Assembly (NCBI GenBank): GCA_002501855.1
Contig: DAOM01000248.1
Coordinates: 1 to 12,900, forward strand
Direction of reading: 5' to 3'
Source of the DNA: Candidatus Nitrosopolaris nunavutensis
GTDB lineage: Archaea > Thermoproteota > Nitrososphaeria > Nitrososphaerales > Nitrososphaeraceae
DNA: 12,900 nt
In this document: piece by piece, positions 1 through 12,900 of the stretch
Numbering within the stretch: position 1 is the stretch's first letter
Layout of the letters: each line of letters begins with the position of its first letter
Translations under genes and position numbers: made by a program
The notes under the pieces: model-generated
What the model saw: only the letters and a program-made list of their open reading frames with translations
Databases searched by the model: none
Told to the model about the DNA's origin: nothing

Positions 1-34
1 GTCTCGTAGGCTCGGAGATGTGTATAAGAGACAG
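1..34. other. Nextera/Tn5 sequencing adapter (not genomic)
   Basis: Bases 16-34 are exactly the 19-bp Tn5 mosaic end (AGATGTGTATAAGAGACAG). Bases 1-15 match the Nextera read-2 adapter except for one base (A instead of G at position 8). This is library adapter left at a contig end, not chromosomal DNA. It creates a false ATG at 18 and the false N-terminus MCIRDS on the following gene. Confidence 0.97.
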
Positions 35-35
35 T

Positions 36-482
36 TTCAAGACAGCTGAGGAGGACCGAAACAACCGTGAGGGATTAAAGGGGTGGCTTAATCCGACGAG
101 GTATGGCTGGGAGCGTGTGTCTTACTGGTTACAGCGATTAACGGGCCTATTTCTTTTGATATACTTCATTGGGCATATATACGAGACAAGCTCACTTACC
201 GGCGGTGCAGGCGCTTGGAACGCGATGTTACAGTTTACAGAAACGCCTTGGGGACATCTCTTTCTGATTCTTGTTATCGGGACAAGTACTTATCATTCTA
301 CAAATGGCATTAGATTGATATTTACGGAAGCCGGAAGGGGGCTCGGACGACCTGGAAGACCTGACTATCCATATGACGCTCTCTCACTGAATTACCGGCA
401 GAAATCCGGAATATGGATTGCACTTATCCTGGCAGCGGTCGCAATGTTCTATGGCGGTAACGTGCTCTTCGGCGGAGAGTAA
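36..482 (+). CDS. sdhC: Succinate dehydrogenase membrane anchor, cytochrome b-type subunit SdhC (5'-truncated)
   Basis: This is a membrane anchor of complex II, which passes electrons from succinate oxidation to quinone in the cytoplasmic membrane. The frame is open from the first genomic codon (TTC at 36). The apparent ATG at 18 is adapter, so the true start lies off the contig. Counted from TTC, hydrophobic segments lie at about residues 35-52, 75-90 and 126-144. The SdhC-type segment RLTG is followed by a His near residue 47, and the motif YHSTNGIRLI contains a His near residue 87. These are candidate heme/quinone-site residues. The piece is about 148 residues, so probably only a short N-terminal part is missing. 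sdhD follows after 30 bases on the same strand. sdhA is not in the window and may lie upstream. Identity as complex II anchor is firm from the context with sdhB; the C versus D label is by motif and order. Confidence 0.85.
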   Translation, partial: FKTAEEDRNNREGLKGWLNPTRYGWERVSYWLQRLTGLFLLIYFIGHIYETSSLTGGAGAWNAMLQFTETPWGHLFLILVIGTSTYHSTNGIRLIFTEAGRGLGRPGRPDYPYDALSLNYRQKSGIWIALILAAVAMFYGGNVLFGGE

Positions 483-4077: not shown

Positions 4078-4088
4078 CTATATATTAC
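4078..4088 (-). promoter_or_regulatory. TATA box of tRNA-Gln inside the DUF354 3' end
   Basis: The - strand reads TAATATATAG, ending on the TAG stop codon of DUF354. Its centre is 23-24 bases before the first tRNA base. The tRNA therefore seems to have its own promoter embedded in the last codons of the gene ahead of it. Confidence 0.5.
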
Positions 4089-5187
4089 CATCTTTAGAAT
4101 GTTGCGTGCTTATGTTCAGATACGAGAGCATTTTGTCTAAGGGATCTTCCATTTTGTCGAAAATGCGCGCCGCCAGTCTTTTCTGTTTTTTCTTATACTT
4201 CTCATCCTTTAGCATCCTGTTGGTCAATCTTACTAGTTCGATCGAATTTGATGCCCTCTTCACCAGCCCTGAAGACACGAGATATTTCTCTACATAAAAT
4301 CGAATTGGCGAGATAGAAATAGTAGGCGTTCCAACAAGCGAGGCCTCGGAAGTCATTGTTCCTCCTGCCCCTATGAACACGTCTGCTGAAGCTATCAGAG
4401 GAATTCCATCGACAACGTTTCTGAGTATGAAGGCCCTTGCTTCATACCTCTCCATTAACTGTCGTATTTGTTCTTCATATCTACATAGAATAACGATATT
4501 GATTGAATTGTGTAAGTTATTTACTAGGGCATCCACCATAGAAATGCGGTTTTCTAACATCTTGTCTGCTATGTATGATGCCTTCGTTTCTTCGAGCCTA
4601 ATCAGAACAATTTTTTTCCGGGGGTCAAGGTTCAATTCTCGTAAGCATGCAGGAGGTACAGATGACGATGGCGACGGATCCCGCTTGAGCCATGCAACAG
4701 GATCCAGAGCCCTGTACTGTGTTATCTTTGTCTTTGAAATACCGAACGGAAGCCACGCAGAAATGGGGATCACCCATGGACTGAAAAGATGATAGGTGAG
4801 TGGGATAGTGAGCTTCGAGACCGCTTCTGCGTGTGGAGAATCGTTAAATCCAATGTGTCTAATTCCAAGTCCATATGCCACCCGTGATGCTTCAGGAGAT
4901 GAGAATGTGATCGCGAAATCAGGTTCAAACTTATTTATCAAACCGGCGAGTTCAAAAATCCTAGATGCACTTTCTCGCAGCTTTTGGTATCTTTCTGCGC
5001 CGCCATGTCTGCCAACAATTTTGAGTTTGAGGTTTTTGACGTTGGCTAGTTCTACGGCTTCTCTATAATGTCTAGACGTACAGAGTAACTCGTGATCGGA
5101 TTCACGAAGCAAAGTTACTGCGGGACCAAAAAACATCACTTGCTTTGGCGTCAAGATGTCGAACCAAATTCTCAAGGATAACAACAC
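4078..5187 (-). CDS. DUF354 family protein (GT-B fold, glycosyltransferase/UDP-GlcNAc 2-epimerase-like)
   Basis: This archaeal protein of 369 residues belongs to DUF354, a family with the two-domain fold of UDP-N-acetylglucosamine 2-epimerase and GT-B glycosyltransferases. The N-terminal WFDILTPKQVMFFGP (residues 8-22) is the family hallmark. The second domain carries GAGGTMTSEASLVGTP at 273-288, where nucleotide-sugar binding is expected. No signal peptide or membrane segment is seen. The start is GTG at 5187 (GTG TTG TTA); the hallmark lies only a few residues in, so little can be missing. It diverges from a dehydrogenase-like gene and lies near a WbpB/WbpD-like pair, which suggests work on an acetylated sugar nucleotide for surface glycans. 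The exact reaction, epimerisation or glycosyl transfer, is not known for the family and cannot be fixed here. Confidence 0.85.
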   Translation of the reverse strand: MLLSLRIWFDILTPKQVMFFGPAVTLLRESDHELLCTSRHYREAVELANVKNLKLKIVGRHGGAERYQKLRESASRIFELAGLINKFEPDFAITFSSPEASRVAYGLGIRHIGFNDSPHAEAVSKLTIPLTYHLFSPWVIPISAWLPFGISKTKITQYRALDPVAWLKRDPSPSSSVPPACLRELNLDPRKKIVLIRLEETKASYIADKMLENRISMVDALVNNLHNSINIVILCRYEEQIRQLMERYEARAFILRNVVDGIPLIASADVFIGAGGTMTSEASLVGTPTISISPIRFYVEKYLVSSGLVKRASNSIELVRLTNRMLKDEKYKKKQKRLAARIFDKMEDPLDKMLSYLNISTQHSKDGNI

Positions 5188-6514: not shown

Positions 6515-7018
6515 TTAACTCGACGCTAACCACTCGGCTTTTTTCTTGTCGTATTCTGCTCTCGAATACTTCACCCTTGCAGGGTGCCCCATCACAACCA
6601 TTCTTGGTGGCACATCTTTTGTCACCACTGCCCCCATCGCTACGACGCTACCTTCTCCCACCCTTACCCCGGGCCTTATAACTGCTCTGCTTCCTATGAT
6701 AGCTCCTTCTTCTACTATGACCCCGCTCATTTTAGGACTCATAGGATAAGGATCGTTTGTGAAAGTTGCCCCAGGTCCGATGAAGACATTCTTGCCGATT
6801 GTTGTTAAAGGTGGAATATAGACAGATCCTTCAATTCGAGTATTTTCGCCTATTTTTACTTTATAGTCAACATGTGATAGCGAACCAATCATCACGTTGT
6901 CTCCTATTTCCGTATCATCCCCTACGTATGCAAAATGCCAGATCTTGACGTTCTGGCCAATTTTTGCAGATTTAGAGATGTAATTCGTTATTGTTGAAGT
7001 GGAGTTATTTTGGCTCAT
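6515..7018 (-). CDS. Hexapeptide-repeat acetyltransferase, WbpD-like
   Basis: This left-handed beta-helix acyltransferase has 167 residues. Repeated I/V-G-x-x-x turns run through most of the chain: AKIGQNVKI, TEIGDNVMIG, VKIGENTRI, TTIGKNVFIG, AIIGSRAVI and VRVGEGSVV. SHVDYKVKIG (48-57), VYIPPLTTIG (67-75) and FTNDPYP (86-92) match the branch that contains WbpD, the acetyl-CoA-dependent N-acetyltransferase acting on UDP-2-acetamido-3-amino-uronic acid. The start ATG 7018 gives a normal N-terminus. It is the last gene of the ilvE - Gfo/Idh - Trm112 - acetyltransferase operon, 12 bases after Trm112. The Gfo/Idh partner two genes upstream would supply the 3-keto step (WbpB-like), so a sugar role is well supported. 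The exact substrate is inferred. Confidence 0.88.
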   Translation of the reverse strand: MSQNNSTSTITNYISKSAKIGQNVKIWHFAYVGDDTEIGDNVMIGSLSHVDYKVKIGENTRIEGSVYIPPLTTIGKNVFIGPGATFTNDPYPMSPKMSGVIVEEGAIIGSRAVIRPGVRVGEGSVVAMGAVVTKDVPPRMVVMGHPARVKYSRAEYDKKKAEWLASS

Positions 7019-7030
7019 TCAAGAACGCCT

Positions 7031-7321
7031 CTACAGATGCCAAGGATTACCGGACTTTATAACTTTGTCAGGGATTTTATTTCTCCACTTCTGTAAAAAA
7101 TCTATTTCCGATTGCCTTTCGCGCAATTCGTCCGGCAACATTACGGGGATTTCGTCCACAATCGGAAAGAAACGAAGACATTTGCCGCAAAATAAAATAC
7201 CCTCAATTATGGCCGTGTCTGTACCGGAACCTTCTTCGAGCCGGGTATTTAGTTCAAATAGTTCCAGTGGATAATGCTTGTCGATAGGACACGCCAAGAT
7301 ATCAAGCATGGCTTTTCTCAT
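7031..7321 (-). CDS. Trm112-like zinc-binding protein
   Basis: This small protein of 96 residues has the Trm112 fold. MLDILACPIDKHYPLEL (5-21) is the family start, and CGKCLRFFPIVDEIPVMLP (45-63) is the second half. C11, C45 and C48 are likely zinc ligands, with D14 in place of a fourth Cys. Trm112 proteins activate and stabilise RNA and protein methyltransferases, and bacterial YcaR-type relatives are often encoded beside sugar or lipid A genes. The gene starts 2 bases after the Gfo/Idh stop and ends 12 bases before the acetyltransferase, so it is made together with them. No methyltransferase gene is in the window, so its partner here is unknown. Either the placement is only operonic convenience or the protein serves the sugar pathway. 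Confidence 0.85.
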   Translation of the reverse strand: MRKAMLDILACPIDKHYPLELFELNTRLEEGSGTDTAIIEGILFCGKCLRFFPIVDEIPVMLPDELRERQSEIDFLQKWRNKIPDKVIKSGNPWHL

Positions 7322-7323
7322 CT

Positions 7324-8289
7324 CTATTTCAAATCCATATAGATCGGCGAGCCGGTGTTGCTCGACAAAAGTGCTGCTTCCGCTACCTTAGTAACATTCC
7401 TTGCGTCTTCAGGAGTTACTACAGGTTCTCTGATTTTTCCGGCGACAACGTCGAGAAAACTTTGCAATTCTAATGTTAGCGGTTCTTTAAATTTACCGCG
7501 ACGCGGTATTATCGTAGCCTCTTCATAATCTATTTTGATCCTTTGAGTGATATAGTCTCCGGTAATGATACCCTCGGTGCAGACTGCGCTAAACTTTCTT
7601 ACTCGGTTCGGAGTGATCCAATTGGATGCGATAATTGCGACCCTCTGCTCGTCAAAGCCTAGCATAATAGTCGCAAAATCTTCATACGAATGAAATTTTG
7701 TACCGGAACGTGCAAAAACAACATGAGGCGTACTATTGAACAGGTACATTGCAGTATCAATATCGTGGACGGATGTATCGTAAATTATGCCGACGTCTCG
7801 AATATGTAAGGGCATTCTGTTTTCTCTATGAAACTCCATCATTAGTAGATCACCGTATTTGTGATTATCTATAATCTGCTTAACATCCTGAATGGCGGGA
7901 TTGAACCTTTCGATATACCCGGACGTCAAGATCACTTTTCTTTTCTTAGCTATTTCGATCATCTGTTCGCATTCAAACGAGGAGAATGCTAACGGTTTCT
8001 CGACAAAAACGTGAACTCCCTTTTCCATTATCTTTTTTGCCATAGCGAAGTGCGTCTTGGTAGGGGTGCAGACTATGCAGCCGTCTAAAGGAACTTCATT
8101 TTCTAGCAATTGCTCGAGCGAAAAATAAGGCTTTGCGTCATAAAGCGTGGCCAGTTCTCTTGCACGCAATTCATCGTTATCACATATTGACGCGAGGACG
8201 CCAATTTCATGCAAGACTCTCGCGTGGTTCTTACCCCATCCGCCAACTCCTATTACTGCGAATCTTCGTTTGTCCTCTGTTTTCACCAT
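7324..8289 (-). CDS. Gfo/Idh/MocA family oxidoreductase, WbpB-like
   Basis: This NAD(P)-dependent dehydrogenase has about 321 residues. The N-terminal Rossmann domain has FAVIGVGGWGKNHAR (10-24) with the GxGGWG dinucleotide loop. HVFVEKPLA (93-101) carries the conserved EKP. DTSVHDIDTAMYL (171-183) carries the His/Asp pair typical of the catalytic region. The C-terminal domain is the usual open beta sheet. Sequence neighbours of this type oxidise UDP-2-acetamido-2-deoxy-uronate at C3, which fits the WbpD-like acetyltransferase in the same operon. I start at ATG 8289, which overlaps the ilvE stop by 7 bases; GTG 8304 would add five residues. The DegT-type aminotransferase needed between the two sugar steps is not in this window. 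Confidence 0.88.
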   Translation of the reverse strand: MVKTEDKRRFAVIGVGGWGKNHARVLHEIGVLASICDNDELRARELATLYDAKPYFSLEQLLENEVPLDGCIVCTPTKTHFAMAKKIMEKGVHVFVEKPLAFSSFECEQMIEIAKKRKVILTSGYIERFNPAIQDVKQIIDNHKYGDLLMMEFHRENRMPLHIRDVGIIYDTSVHDIDTAMYLFNSTPHVVFARSGTKFHSYEDFATIMLGFDEQRVAIIASNWITPNRVRKFSAVCTEGIITGDYITQRIKIDYEEATIIPRRGKFKEPLTLELQSFLDVVAGKIREPVVTPEDARNVTKVAEAALLSSNTGSPIYMDLK

Positions 8290-9200
8290 ACAGATGTTAG
8301 CCACCTGGTGTACTCTGCGAGCTCTGCTGTTACGATTTTTGAATAGGTAGTACGAATTCTACCGGTCACAGGACCCTCCTTACCATCACCTACTACGCGA
8401 CCATCTATATCGATTATAGCTACGATTTCTGCTGCAGTCCCTGTGAGAAACAGCTCCGATGCCATGTATAGTTCGGTGCGAGAAATGGGACGCTCCATTA
8501 CCTCATATCCCAGATTCTTGGCTATAGCTATTGCAGCGTCACGTGTAATACCTTCTAAGGCAGATCCAGCTATATATGGTGTATATATTTTGTTGTTTCT
8601 GACGATGAAGATATTCTCTCCCGACGCTTCACTCACATTCCCATCTCTGTCCAGCATCACTGATTCGTCATAGCCGTTCCTATTGCTCTCTTGAGTTGCA
8701 AGTACTGAATTAAGATAGTTGCCAGCAGCTTTTGCCATTGGCGGTGTGGAGGAATCATGAATTCTGCGCCATGAAGAAATACAGGCACTAATGCCTTCTA
8801 CTTTAAAATACTTCGCAAATGGGAATACTATTATCACAACATGCGTAGGAGAATCCCTCGTTACATTCAAATCAATACCGTGCTGTCCTACAAATGCTAA
8901 CGGTCGGATATAACATGATTCTTTCATCCGATTTTTTTTCAATAACTCTAAAGTTGCCTCCTCTAATTCCTTTGCTGAATAATTCATTGCAATGGAATAG
9001 ACTGCAGCCGAGTGACGGAGTCTGTCCATATGTTCTCTCAATCTAAATACATGAAGATTATTTTTTGATGAATATGCACGAATGCCCTCAAAAACTGAAG
9101 TTCCATAGTGTAGAGCGTGAGTAGTAACTGGAACGGTCGCTTCTTCCCATTTTACAATTTTGCCATCAATCCAGATGAAGTCAGCGCCTTTTGTTCTCAT
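8283..9200 (-). CDS. ilvE: Branched-chain amino acid aminotransferase (class IV PLP)
   Basis: This enzyme transfers an amino group between glutamate and the 2-keto acids of leucine, isoleucine and valine. It has 305 residues, the usual length. FIWIDGKIV (8-16), HYGTSVFEGIRAY (31-43), FRLREHMDRL (52-61) and YIRPLAF (97-103) are family marks. The PLP lysine is K157 in PPMAKAAGNYLNS, and E191 lies in VSEASGENIFIV (189-200), the fold-IV signature. ATG 9200 is preceded by TTTTTATAAT about 27 bases upstream, giving a leaderless start. It is the first gene of a four-gene operon and overlaps the Gfo/Idh start by 7 bases. The neighbouring sugar genes need an aminotransferase, but the sequence is plainly branched-chain type, so I do not assign it that job. 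Confidence 0.94.
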   Translation of the reverse strand: MRTKGADFIWIDGKIVKWEEATVPVTTHALHYGTSVFEGIRAYSSKNNLHVFRLREHMDRLRHSAAVYSIAMNYSAKELEEATLELLKKNRMKESCYIRPLAFVGQHGIDLNVTRDSPTHVVIIVFPFAKYFKVEGISACISSWRRIHDSSTPPMAKAAGNYLNSVLATQESNRNGYDESVMLDRDGNVSEASGENIFIVRNNKIYTPYIAGSALEGITRDAAIAIAKNLGYEVMERPISRTELYMASELFLTGTAAEIVAIIDIDGRVVGDGKEGPVTGRIRTTYSKIVTAELAEYTRWLTSVW

Positions 9201-10480: not shown

Positions 10481-10604
10481 CATTAGCTGCAGTAGGGGGG
10501 TCCTATCTTTTTTCTCTCAAATACCATGTACCTAATACCTCGCTAAGTGCTCTGATTACCGATTATCGCGACTATCTCGATCCTCGGGATGGAACTGCAG
10601 CGAC

Positions 10605-12455
10605 CTATCTTTTTCTTGTTTCAATTGATGCATTAGTTGAATCTATGCCTCTCCATATTATATCATAGCCTAATTTTGAAAGGAGATCGACATGGCAAGA
10701 TTCGGGTACATTATACTTTTTAAAAAGGAAAATAGCATCCATGAACCTTGAGATAGAATTCAAAGATTTCTCTAGTTCCAATATTTTAGAACGCGATATT
10801 AGATATGTTCCAACAATTAGGTAACTACGCCCGTTATCATTTACATTTACATTTCCTGCCTCCCTAGATCGAAGAGCTATTAGCACCGAATCAGAAGGGA
10901 TATTATATTTTTCAGCTAACTCGCCTATCGATACTATGCCGCCGAAGCTGCCTCCATCAGTTCTGCTATCGTCTTCGTTATTATCCTGAGTAATACCAAT
11001 GGTAAGACGGTCTATCTCTGCTAGCAAATCATTCGAGGCGGTGCTTGCTATCCTTCGAATCATCTCCTGATCAATTGACTTCAAGTACGAAAGGATTGCC
11101 TTCAGGGGCACTTGACCGTTTTTATAAAGTATCAAATGATCCTTTTGTACTAATGAACCCAGTCTCGAGATGAGATCCTTTTCGACTTTTTTATACTTGG
11201 AAGCGGTGTAATAATCGCTATTCACTGCCAAAAAGATATCCAGTTTGTCATCTTTGTACAGTTGCTTATTCGCAGAAGAAATTCGTGTTAGTTTGCCGAT
11301 CTTTCGCTCGATATATTCCGTAGTCCAAAAGCCGACTATCTCTAAATATATGCGACGGCCGTACCTTTCAAACATAAAGTCTGGGATGAATGCCTTATCA
11401 TTGTCCAAAATGATCGGGTCCGGCTCCCTTATCAAGGTCCAGCCTGTGCGAAATTGCTGGAATTTTATCGCAAATTTTTCTTCAACAGTGCTATCAAAGG
11501 ACGAACCAGATTTGGCAGTTAGCTTCTTACTATTGTTATGACCAGGCAATGCCATTAATTGAGGTGCATCCTCTTTTGAGATGTGAAATTCATACATTTT
11601 CCTTCCTACAGATACTGACTTCCTGATAATCCATGCCTGCAGCGACCATGATTCTGCAGAAATTATAGACGGAAGTAATTTCGCAATCGCCGTGCCGTAG
11701 ATTTCCGTCACCTTGAACATGCTTTGTGGACCATCGAGAGAACACACAACTGTATCACCATGATAAATCGTATTTTTAGAGGTCCGATCGACTAATGTGC
11801 TTGGTTGGTTTCGAATATTATACATTAGGCCTACTCTTTTGACATCTCTTAGCACTCGTTTCCAGCTCGACCCTCCATGTAGAGCGACTTGTAGAGTTGT
11901 GCAGCTAAATAAGAGTGTCTGTATGAGGGCGAGGTTATACCATGCCACAAGGATTGCCGGCGTTATTCCATCGAAATTCTCCACAACTAAGTTCTCATCT
12001 AGGTCACTCCACATTTGATTTAGCACATTTTCCTTATCTACACCTAGCTGCCTCGCGACAGATTGAATTATCTCTTCTCTTCTAAGAATAGTTAATGCAA
12101 AATCAGATTTAGATGATTCTTCGAATAAACTTCGCCTTATTATATCAGGTTCAATCATGAGGTGAACCGAATCAATACCATTTTTCCTTGACTGTTCACT
12201 ACTGTTAAGAAACGTACACCTTCTTTCAAGTAAGGTAGAAATGCCCCTGACGAGTTTATAGTCTCCGTGTTTACTTTCGATTAGTCCAATTCGATCTGTA
12301 AGGAGTCCTTTTCTATCTCTTTTCTTCCATGATTCTTCGAACTCTCCGATTATATCAGCTGCCAACGATACGTCTTCATCCGAGGTACAAAAGATTGGGG
12401 CAATGTTTTTCCCTTTATCTGAAATTTTGACTCTGAGTAGTTGGAGCGGAAGCAT
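10605..12455 (-). CDS. bax1: Bax1 nuclease (DUF790), partner of XPB helicase
   Basis: Bax1 is an archaeal structure-specific endonuclease that works with the XPB helicase in a repair pathway resembling nucleotide excision repair. This protein has 616 residues. The N-terminal MLPLQLLRVKI (1-11) is the family start. The nuclease core is FDSTVEEKFA (320-329), AFIPDFMFE (355-363) and RIYLEIVGFWTTEYIERK (368-385). E325/E326, D359 and E372 are candidate metal ligands of a PD-(D/E)xK-like site, and the motif is intact. The C-terminal part (about 505-600) looks like a helix-turn-helix-like, less conserved segment. It starts at ATG 12455, with a second possible ATG 5 bases ahead and out of frame. A TATA-like GATAAAAGAT lies about 27 bases upstream. 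In many archaea xpb lies directly upstream of bax1; here only an XPB N-terminal domain is found there. Confidence 0.92.
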   Translation of the reverse strand: MLPLQLLRVKISDKGKNIAPIFCTSDEDVSLAADIIGEFEESWKKRDRKGLLTDRIGLIESKHGDYKLVRGISTLLERRCTFLNSSEQSRKNGIDSVHLMIEPDIIRRSLFEESSKSDFALTILRREEIIQSVARQLGVDKENVLNQMWSDLDENLVVENFDGITPAILVAWYNLALIQTLLFSCTTLQVALHGGSSWKRVLRDVKRVGLMYNIRNQPSTLVDRTSKNTIYHGDTVVCSLDGPQSMFKVTEIYGTAIAKLLPSIISAESWSLQAWIIRKSVSVGRKMYEFHISKEDAPQLMALPGHNNSKKLTAKSGSSFDSTVEEKFAIKFQQFRTGWTLIREPDPIILDNDKAFIPDFMFERYGRRIYLEIVGFWTTEYIERKIGKLTRISSANKQLYKDDKLDIFLAVNSDYYTASKYKKVEKDLISRLGSLVQKDHLILYKNGQVPLKAILSYLKSIDQEMIRRIASTASNDLLAEIDRLTIGITQDNNEDDSRTDGGSFGGIVSIGELAEKYNIPSDSVLIALRSREAGNVNVNDNGRSYLIVGTYLISRSKILELEKSLNSISRFMDAIFLFKKYNVPESCHVDLLSKLGYDIIWRGIDSTNASIETRKR

Positions 12456-12508
12456 GTCATGTCACACTTGCGTTGTATCTTTTATCTTGCAAGTCAAACG
12501 ATTATCCG

Positions 12509-12673
12509 TCAATCACTCAAATTCACATTCACAAGATAATCTAGAAAATCTTTAGAATATAGTGCAAAAGCTCTCAGCATGTTTGTGCGGGGATCTAAAT
12601 TAGAATAAGGAATATGTGCTACACCTTGTATCGATATTGTGCCTTTATCATAGCTCAGCATAGCCCTGGACAT
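12509..12673 (-). CDS. Stand-alone XPB N-terminal damage-recognition-like domain (54 residues)
   Basis: This short frame encodes 54 residues: LSYDKGTISIQGVAHIP (6-22), SNLDPRTNMLRAFALYSKD (24-42) and FLDYL (43-47). It lines up with the first 45 or so residues of archaeal XPB, where the pattern is YxRGTIxVxGxAHxP...DxRSxxxRALAxRYxDIIEY. The frame ends in TGA at 12509, and only 53 bases remain before Bax1, so no helicase motors (Walker A, DExH) can follow. The start ATG 12673 has a TATA-like TTAAAATTTT centred about 28 bases upstream, the same spacing as other genes here, so it may be expressed. It could be a functional mini-protein that pairs with Bax1 or with an XPB made elsewhere, or the relic of a deletion. 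The match was made from memory of the family without a database search. Confidence 0.62.
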   Translation of the reverse strand: MSRAMLSYDKGTISIQGVAHIPYSNLDPRTNMLRAFALYSKDFLDYLVNVNLSD

Positions 12674-12695
12674 TCTTATAACTAATAGCCGTATG

Positions 12696-12705
12696 AAAAT
12701 TTTAA
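12696..12705 (-). promoter_or_regulatory. TATA-like element before the XPB-domain gene
   Basis: The - strand reads TTAAAATTTT, centred about 28 bases before ATG 12673. This spacing matches the other leaderless starts in the window and is the main hint that the short gene is transcribed. Confidence 0.42.
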
Positions 12706-12715
12706 CCTTTGTTTA

Positions 12716-12900
12716 GCCCTGTATTGTGAAAGGTAGAAATCTGCACCGGTTTCTTACATGTGATATTTGTTTTTTCATCGCCATACAAGTTGAGTTAAAG
12801 GACAAGGTTTAAAAAACACTCGTCTCTCAGTTATTTATTATATTTAGTATAGGGGGACGAAGTCTATAACAGTTGATGATAGATTGATTCAGTTTTTGAG
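12716..12900. other. A/T-rich gap at the window end, no gene recognised
   Basis: No open frame with a family match was found on either strand. A T/A block TTATTTATTATATTTAG (12831-12847) looks like a + strand TATA region. It would start RNA near 12870, with the frame from 12867 open to the window end but lacking ATG, GTG or TTG at the right place. A gene or RNA starting just beyond the window is possible. Confidence 0.3.

Follow-up and report, generated by a model that had tools for sequence, protein, structure and literature searches.

The window, i.e. the whole stretch of 12,900 nucleotides of Candidatus Nitrosopolaris nunavutensis DNA that was analysed (contig DAOM01000248.1), carries a short frame for the N-terminal part of XPB ahead of bax1, with no helicase motor between them. 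This stub is very probably a decaying remnant of xpb, an N-terminal scrap left after loss of the remainder of the gene. XPB and Bax1 form a helicase-nuclease pair, and their genes are commonly adjacent in archaea. The features of the locus are the following:

12690..12705, minus strand: promoter-like block TTAAAATTTTCATACG ahead of the stub, identical in 4 of 4 stub-bearing DNA copies
12509..12673, minus strand: XPB damage-recognition-domain stub, very probably an xpb remnant (PF18458; XPB in the PDB; neutral substitution pattern)
12456..12508, minus strand: 53-base spacer from stub to bax1 (sequence; XPB profile scan)
10605..12455, minus strand: bax1, DUF790 nuclease of 616 amino acids, intact (PF05626, E 7.5e-90; omega 0.25-0.34)

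The stub frame opens with ATG, has 54 codons and closes with TGA (12509-12673, minus strand), and bax1 starts at 12455, which leaves a gap of 53 bases. These distances agree with the preliminary description, whose range of 12455..12673 contained the frame and also took in the gap, the frame proper being 12509-12673. The stub matched the Pfam family XPB_DRD (PF18458) with an E value of 1.7e-7 and 31.5 bits, above the curated cut-off of 26, so that the archaeal XPB N-terminal pattern read earlier in its residues was borne out by a profile match. This match spans profile positions 1-47 of 57 and stops short of the domain end. In a phmmer search of the stub against the PDB, three A. fulgidus XPB sequences were retrieved with E values of 8.8e-6 to 2.4e-5. 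The AlphaFold2 model of the stub, based on 22 aligned sequences, reached a pLDDT of 83.9, and its four best Foldseek matches were A. fulgidus XPB chains, with TMq values of 0.76-0.84. The stub can safely be identified as the damage-recognition domain (DRD) of XPB.

The stub is similar to archaeal XPB (RAD25; PF18458; PDB 2FZ4, 2FWR, 6P66) in sequence and predicted fold over the first ~47 of 57 positions, and it occupies the usual place of xpb relative to bax1. As an XPB helicase, its 54 codons hold the N-terminal damage-recognition domain and lack the SF2 motor domains and the thumb. From the window end to bax1 the XPB profile detects just the DRD, in line with the earlier claim that the motors are gone, and HD1, HD2 and the thumb (ThM) are absent; in the spacer (12456-12508), the XPB profile scan upstream of bax1 found neither helicase-motor nor C-terminal XPB similarity. 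Unlike archaeal XPB, the stub has therefore no ATPase and no Bax1-binding surface. Besides the short domain match, conserved DRD positions are replaced, and another residue takes the place of the DPR-motif arginine in 8 of the 12 distinct stubs, versus 3 of 50 XPB rows. Elsewhere in the window, a DUF354 gene lies at 4078-5187, with an oxidoreductase-, acetyltransferase- and aminotransferase-like set nearby at 6515-9200 (names given by eye).

The same short frame ahead of bax1 was found in related genomes, namely in three other assemblies (G001, G021 and G022), with identical junction and TGA and with a stub identity of 78-89%. The nearest genome compared, G001, appears to be Candidatus Nitrosopolaris wilkensis (contig QHBN01000128, same stub sequence), and the stub contigs of G022 and G021 are apparently WJXE01000140 and CAKOFP010000157. 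Additionally, nine database proteins have the C-terminal residues of these stubs (NVNLSD, NVNFSD or NVNLRD); seven of them are exactly 54 amino acids long, P0002 is identical to the stub of G001, and P0009 carries a tail past the shared C-terminal residues. The length rule of this search for 54-residue proteins left out full-length XPBs. P0001 and P0003-P0009 were compared as protein only, and stub DNA was compared in four copies (window, G001, G021 and G022). Two weak stub-like matches with an internal TGA were also seen, one in G050 (E 0.009) and one in G051 (E 0.005).

An assembly deletion between 12455 and 12509 had been considered in the preliminary description; an intact xpb of the window's organism would then have been collapsed by the assembler. 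The window is an assembled contig, and its first frame (window 1-50) opens with LVGSEMCIRDS ahead of an SdhC/D-like protein, a peptide which we take to be typical of sequencing-adapter read-through; this contig end is probably adapter-contaminated. However, as the same junction recurs in three other assemblies, and database proteins share the same C-terminal residues, the stub is not an assembly error, and we rejected this artefact as next to impossible.

The stub shows no protein-level purifying selection, weak constraint being not firmly excluded, and its rate of drift is close to neutral. Over codons 5-54 of the four DNA copies, 27 distinct changes from the majority were counted, 21 of them non-synonymous, and neutral placement of 27 changes gave a mean of 18.8-20.9 non-synonymous ones. 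For the expected amount of change, we relied on a neutral simulation whose tree was fitted to bax1 dS and not on one with hand-set branches, which on the G021 paths fell short of bax1 dS and gave 27.7 changes, 20.0 non-synonymous, with frames open in 0.50 of runs. On the fitted tree, the open runs held 30.2-30.6 changes, 21.1-23.4 of them non-synonymous; the probability of at most 27 changes was 0.28-0.30 and that of at most 21 non-synonymous ones 0.35-0.54, and all four neutral frames were stop-free in 0.30-0.58 of runs (substitutions only, no indels). Since both the amount and the kind of change fit neutrality, and neutral frames often stay stop-free, the open frame needs no selection. At a bax1-like omega of 0.28, the probability of at least 21 non-synonymous changes among 27 was 0.0011 or 0.00016, depending on the neutral fraction assumed, and at an omega of 0.5, which is not firmly excluded, it was 0.056 or 0.017. 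Among the same four relatives, bax1 has an omega of 0.25-0.34, and full-length XPB has 0.24-0.25 among G001, G021 and G022.

Likewise, in each of the six pairs the divergence of the stub is close to that of the intergenic DNA upstream of it, e.g. 0.140 vs 0.134 between G001 and G021. Across the 12 stubs, 8 of 18 XPB-conserved columns have changed, versus 3 of 18 across six full-length XPBs of the stub-bearing genus (g1), which are more divergent overall than the stubs; for variable XPB columns the counts are 17 and 16 of 25, respectively. Stub variability follows XPB conservation weakly (Spearman 0.30, p 0.05), the g1 XPB control giving 0.65.

The frame stays open in each of the four DNA copies, which over 150 bases show no internal indel, frameshift or stop. 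Its two ends are less stable. In G021 a 4-base deletion removes the stub ATG, another in-frame ATG lying four codons on. In P0009 the stop is lost, and its DGLVVWL agrees with the next frame of the G021 spacer, so that, judged from the protein, translation would read through the stop into the spacer. The frame is thus disrupted in some relatives, as in pseudogenes. A decaying relic was one of three options raised in the preliminary description, with dN/dS near 1 and frameshifts as its marks; it is favoured by the proportion of 21 of 27, which is in line with the neutral expectation, and by the two lost ends, and of the two marks the neutral pattern is present and an internal frameshift is absent from the four DNA copies.

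The preliminary description had also credited the stub with a start codon and a well-placed TATA element. The candidate TTAAAA at 12700-12705 ends 26 bases ahead of the stub ATG and is plausible, being identical in all four DNA copies; the start codon is deleted in G021. A stretch similar to the promoter-like block, as judged by eye, is found at locus L007 of G025, which has no stub. The identity of the block in four copies and this similar stretch in a stub-less locus suggest that the promoter now drives bax1; the block at 12690-12705 would probably be the old promoter of an xpb-bax1 unit, now serving bax1.

Two readings that give the stub a present role were weighed against decay. In one, its nucleotides and not its protein would be kept, as a 5' leader of the bax1 mRNA acting through spacing, translation control or an upstream ORF. 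The identity of the promoter block fits this, as does the lower divergence of the stop and spacer beside bax1 (0.018-0.070 across pairs, against 0.053-0.140 for the stub), but the stub body itself diverges like upstream intergenic DNA, near the bax1 dS rate, an Rfam scan of 10500-12900 gave no match at the gathering thresholds, and G025 (L007) and G023 have bax1 without a stub; we consider a retained leader unlikely. In the other reading, the stub would be a stand-alone damage-recognition micro-protein with its own leaderless promoter, which would bind DNA or Bax1 and modulate either the nuclease or the unlinked XPB. A DRD acting apart from its motors would, if functional, be the first case to our knowledge. 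The open ORF in all four DNA copies, the DRD-like predicted fold (pLDDT 84), the well-placed and invariant TTAAAA, the exact length of 54 residues in seven of nine database relatives and the weak residual correlation with XPB conservation can be read in its favour.

Against such a micro-protein stand the neutral substitution pattern, which gives no sign of selection on the protein, the missing ATG in G021, the replaced DPR arginine and the end of the DRD match at profile position 47 of 57. In the solved complexes from A. fulgidus and S. tokodaii, the N-terminal domain of Bax1 contacts ThM and HD2 of XPB, and the portions of PMC7293015 consulted do not name the DRD at this interface. Because the contact, as given in these portions, runs through HD2/ThM, a free DRD would have no known means of holding Bax1. 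When 250 genomes sampled from the order were scanned for orphan DRDs, all above-cut-off matches fell in frames of at least 183 amino acids, a negative result that is weak because the scan missed the known stub of G001; one below-cut-off match (G098:C8:23-151, E 0.009) fell in a 71-residue frame at a contig end. A micro-protein is thereby very improbable, and the stand-alone Bax1 cofactor or XPB regulator proposed in the preliminary description is not supported, given the neutral substitutions and the loss of ATG in G021 and of stop in P0009.

Decay of the linked gene would leave XPB to be supplied from elsewhere, and a full-length XPB was found in the three relatives sharing the stub, these being relatives and not the window's own genome: G001, G021 and G022 have XPB open frames of 477-484 amino acids on contigs other than that of the stub. 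With an omega of 0.24-0.25, these constitute a functional homologue elsewhere, in line with a pseudogene. Of the 48 genomes of the family Nitrososphaeraceae in which both genes were found, 18 have xpb immediately ahead of bax1 and 30 have it on a separate contig, the contig end cutting off the DNA upstream of bax1 in two of the latter (G004 and G024). The gene order in genus g5 is a divergent 104-residue gene, xpb and bax1; in G001, G021 and G022 it is the same divergent gene, the stub and bax1; in G023, G025 and G064 the same upstream gene is followed by bax1, with no DRD trace. The stub thus stands like xpb in the archaeal xpb-bax1 pair, directly upstream, on the same strand and next to the divergent gene as in g5, but the helicase gene is here reduced to a stub and the full xpb of three relatives is unlinked.

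The trees of XPB (47 rows) and Bax1 (49 rows) recovered the genera, with g1 as a single group in each, and the unlinked XPB was therefore inherited within g1. The inner order of g1 is equal in both trees, one inner XPB node being weakly supported (84/72), and the relations of g1, g2, g4, g7 and g11 are not resolved in the XPB tree. Around the unlinked xpb, G001 and G022 have a flanking frame in common, as do G023 and G024; no flanking frame common to both pairs was found within the stretches compared. Transfer of the whole xpb-bax1 block is not favoured, g1 Bax1 being monophyletic and the upstream gene the same.

Some other loci of the family were peculiar. In 13 of 18 g6 genomes (G028-G036, G039-G042), several of which are incomplete, neither XPB_DRD nor DUF790 was detected at the thresholds used, which would fit a joint loss of xpb and bax1. 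Near position 1992 of L026 (G011), the bax1-linked XPB is split into 183 and 295 residues in different frames, by assembly error or early decay. At L037 (G053, g9) the XPB N-terminus is g6-like and unlike other g9 rows, pointing to contamination or transfer, and three g9 genomes (L102, L105 and L106) hold a second helicase-like frame, ~25% identical to XPB, beside a full XPB.

The DNA upstream of 52 bax1 genes (1 kb at most) was scanned with the DRD and XPB profiles, 49 regions being usable, as those of G004, G024 and G060 have at most 25 bases. The C-terminal part of an intact xpb is present in 18 of the 49 and not in the other 31, in which the only DRD traces were the four stubs. In G044 (genus g7), two C-terminal XPB scraps lie at 4271-4387 and 4419-4499 of L129, ahead of bax1 at 4558, in different frames but in the correct order and place. 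They are weak (best profile E value 0.0004 in a 7.5-kb stretch; tblastn 5.9e-4), and G044 has a full-length XPB frame on a separate contig (C388). This is apparently a second, independent decay of xpb; if these weak matches hold, one genus would have kept the front of xpb and another its back, as passive decay would. In G002 and G064, helicase-like matches on the opposite strand were disregarded as belonging to different SF2 genes.

The age of the linked copy was approached from the DRD itself. The stub does not have the states common to the six g1 XPBs (GN past the second strand, LDY ahead of the helix), which suggests that the linked copy branched off prior to the radiation of the genus. The XPB most similar to the window stub is one of g6 (0.63), and the DRD of the G001 XPB has its nearest relative outside its own genus in G044 (0.72). 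For xpb and bax1, dS is ~0.7 between G001 and G025, and 1.65 and 2.35, near saturation, between G001 and G023. Neutral decay was simulated from eight starting domains, a ninth, that of G044, being dropped for a gap; with at least 0.2 changes per site, an identity of at least 0.60 was kept in just 0-14% of runs, by starting domain. This low survival of identity implies that the linked copy was probably constrained until shortly before the four copies split. On the plain account, to judge by 43 columns, two xpb copies would have coexisted and the linked one would have been truncated late. We infer this two-copy stage, since none of the family genomes compared had two full xpb copies, and no full-length protein with a stub-like DRD was found at E <= 0.001 (4 candidates, in a search limited to sequences sharing exact words).

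A variant that overlaps decay of the linked gene concerns the source of the other copy: the unlinked XPB may have been acquired from a related genus, upon which the resident linked xpb became redundant. The differing nearest neighbours of the G001 XPB DRD (G044) and the stub (g6) and the unresolved part of the XPB tree are in keeping with it, but the g1 XPBs form a monophyletic group whose inner order is that of bax1, with weak support at one XPB node, and the stub signal comes from 43 columns; we hold such an acquisition to be doubtful. Alternatively, an orphan DRD might have been functional beside Bax1 for long, and either have been released from selection recently or still be functional in some lineages. 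This would account for the good preservation of the stub despite its apparent early split from the resident XPB, and is nevertheless quite improbable.

For decay of the linked xpb, the course of events would be as follows. The ancestral array would have been the divergent 104-residue upstream gene, xpb and bax1. In the ancestor shared by the window, G001, G021 and G022, within Candidatus Nitrosopolaris and close kin, which are soil ammonia-oxidising archaea, the DNA from the DRD to the xpb/bax1 boundary would have been lost, presumably by deletion, after a period with two xpb copies. This loss would have left 54 codons, closed by a TGA soon after the break. Transcription of bax1 most likely still starts from the old xpb promoter, which would place the stub within the bax1 leader, and XPB function would be supplied in trans by the unlinked full-length xpb.

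The stub is similar to internal-deletion pseudogenes in its neutral ratio, its start and stop losses and the full-length copy elsewhere (in relatives). It differs from typical gene remnants in that it still reads as a short open frame, and for this reason P0004 has been named a hypothetical protein by one source. Among the titles listed for Bax1/XPB and XPB pseudogenes in archaea, for Thaumarchaeota Bax1 and for Nitrosopolaris, none concerns a truncated XPB next to bax1; passages of PMC7293015, PMC7554672 and PMC10117904 were also consulted.

The stub is an ordinary remnant of a broken-up operon and most likely no new cofactor. In this family, an operon that normally pairs a helicase with a nuclease is seen breaking up (18 linked vs 30 unlinked of 48), with two different remains of xpb caught beside bax1, the N-terminal stub in g1 and the weak C-terminal scraps in G044. 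This suggests that the 54-residue hypothetical proteins matching XPB_DRD in these genomes should be treated as remnants.
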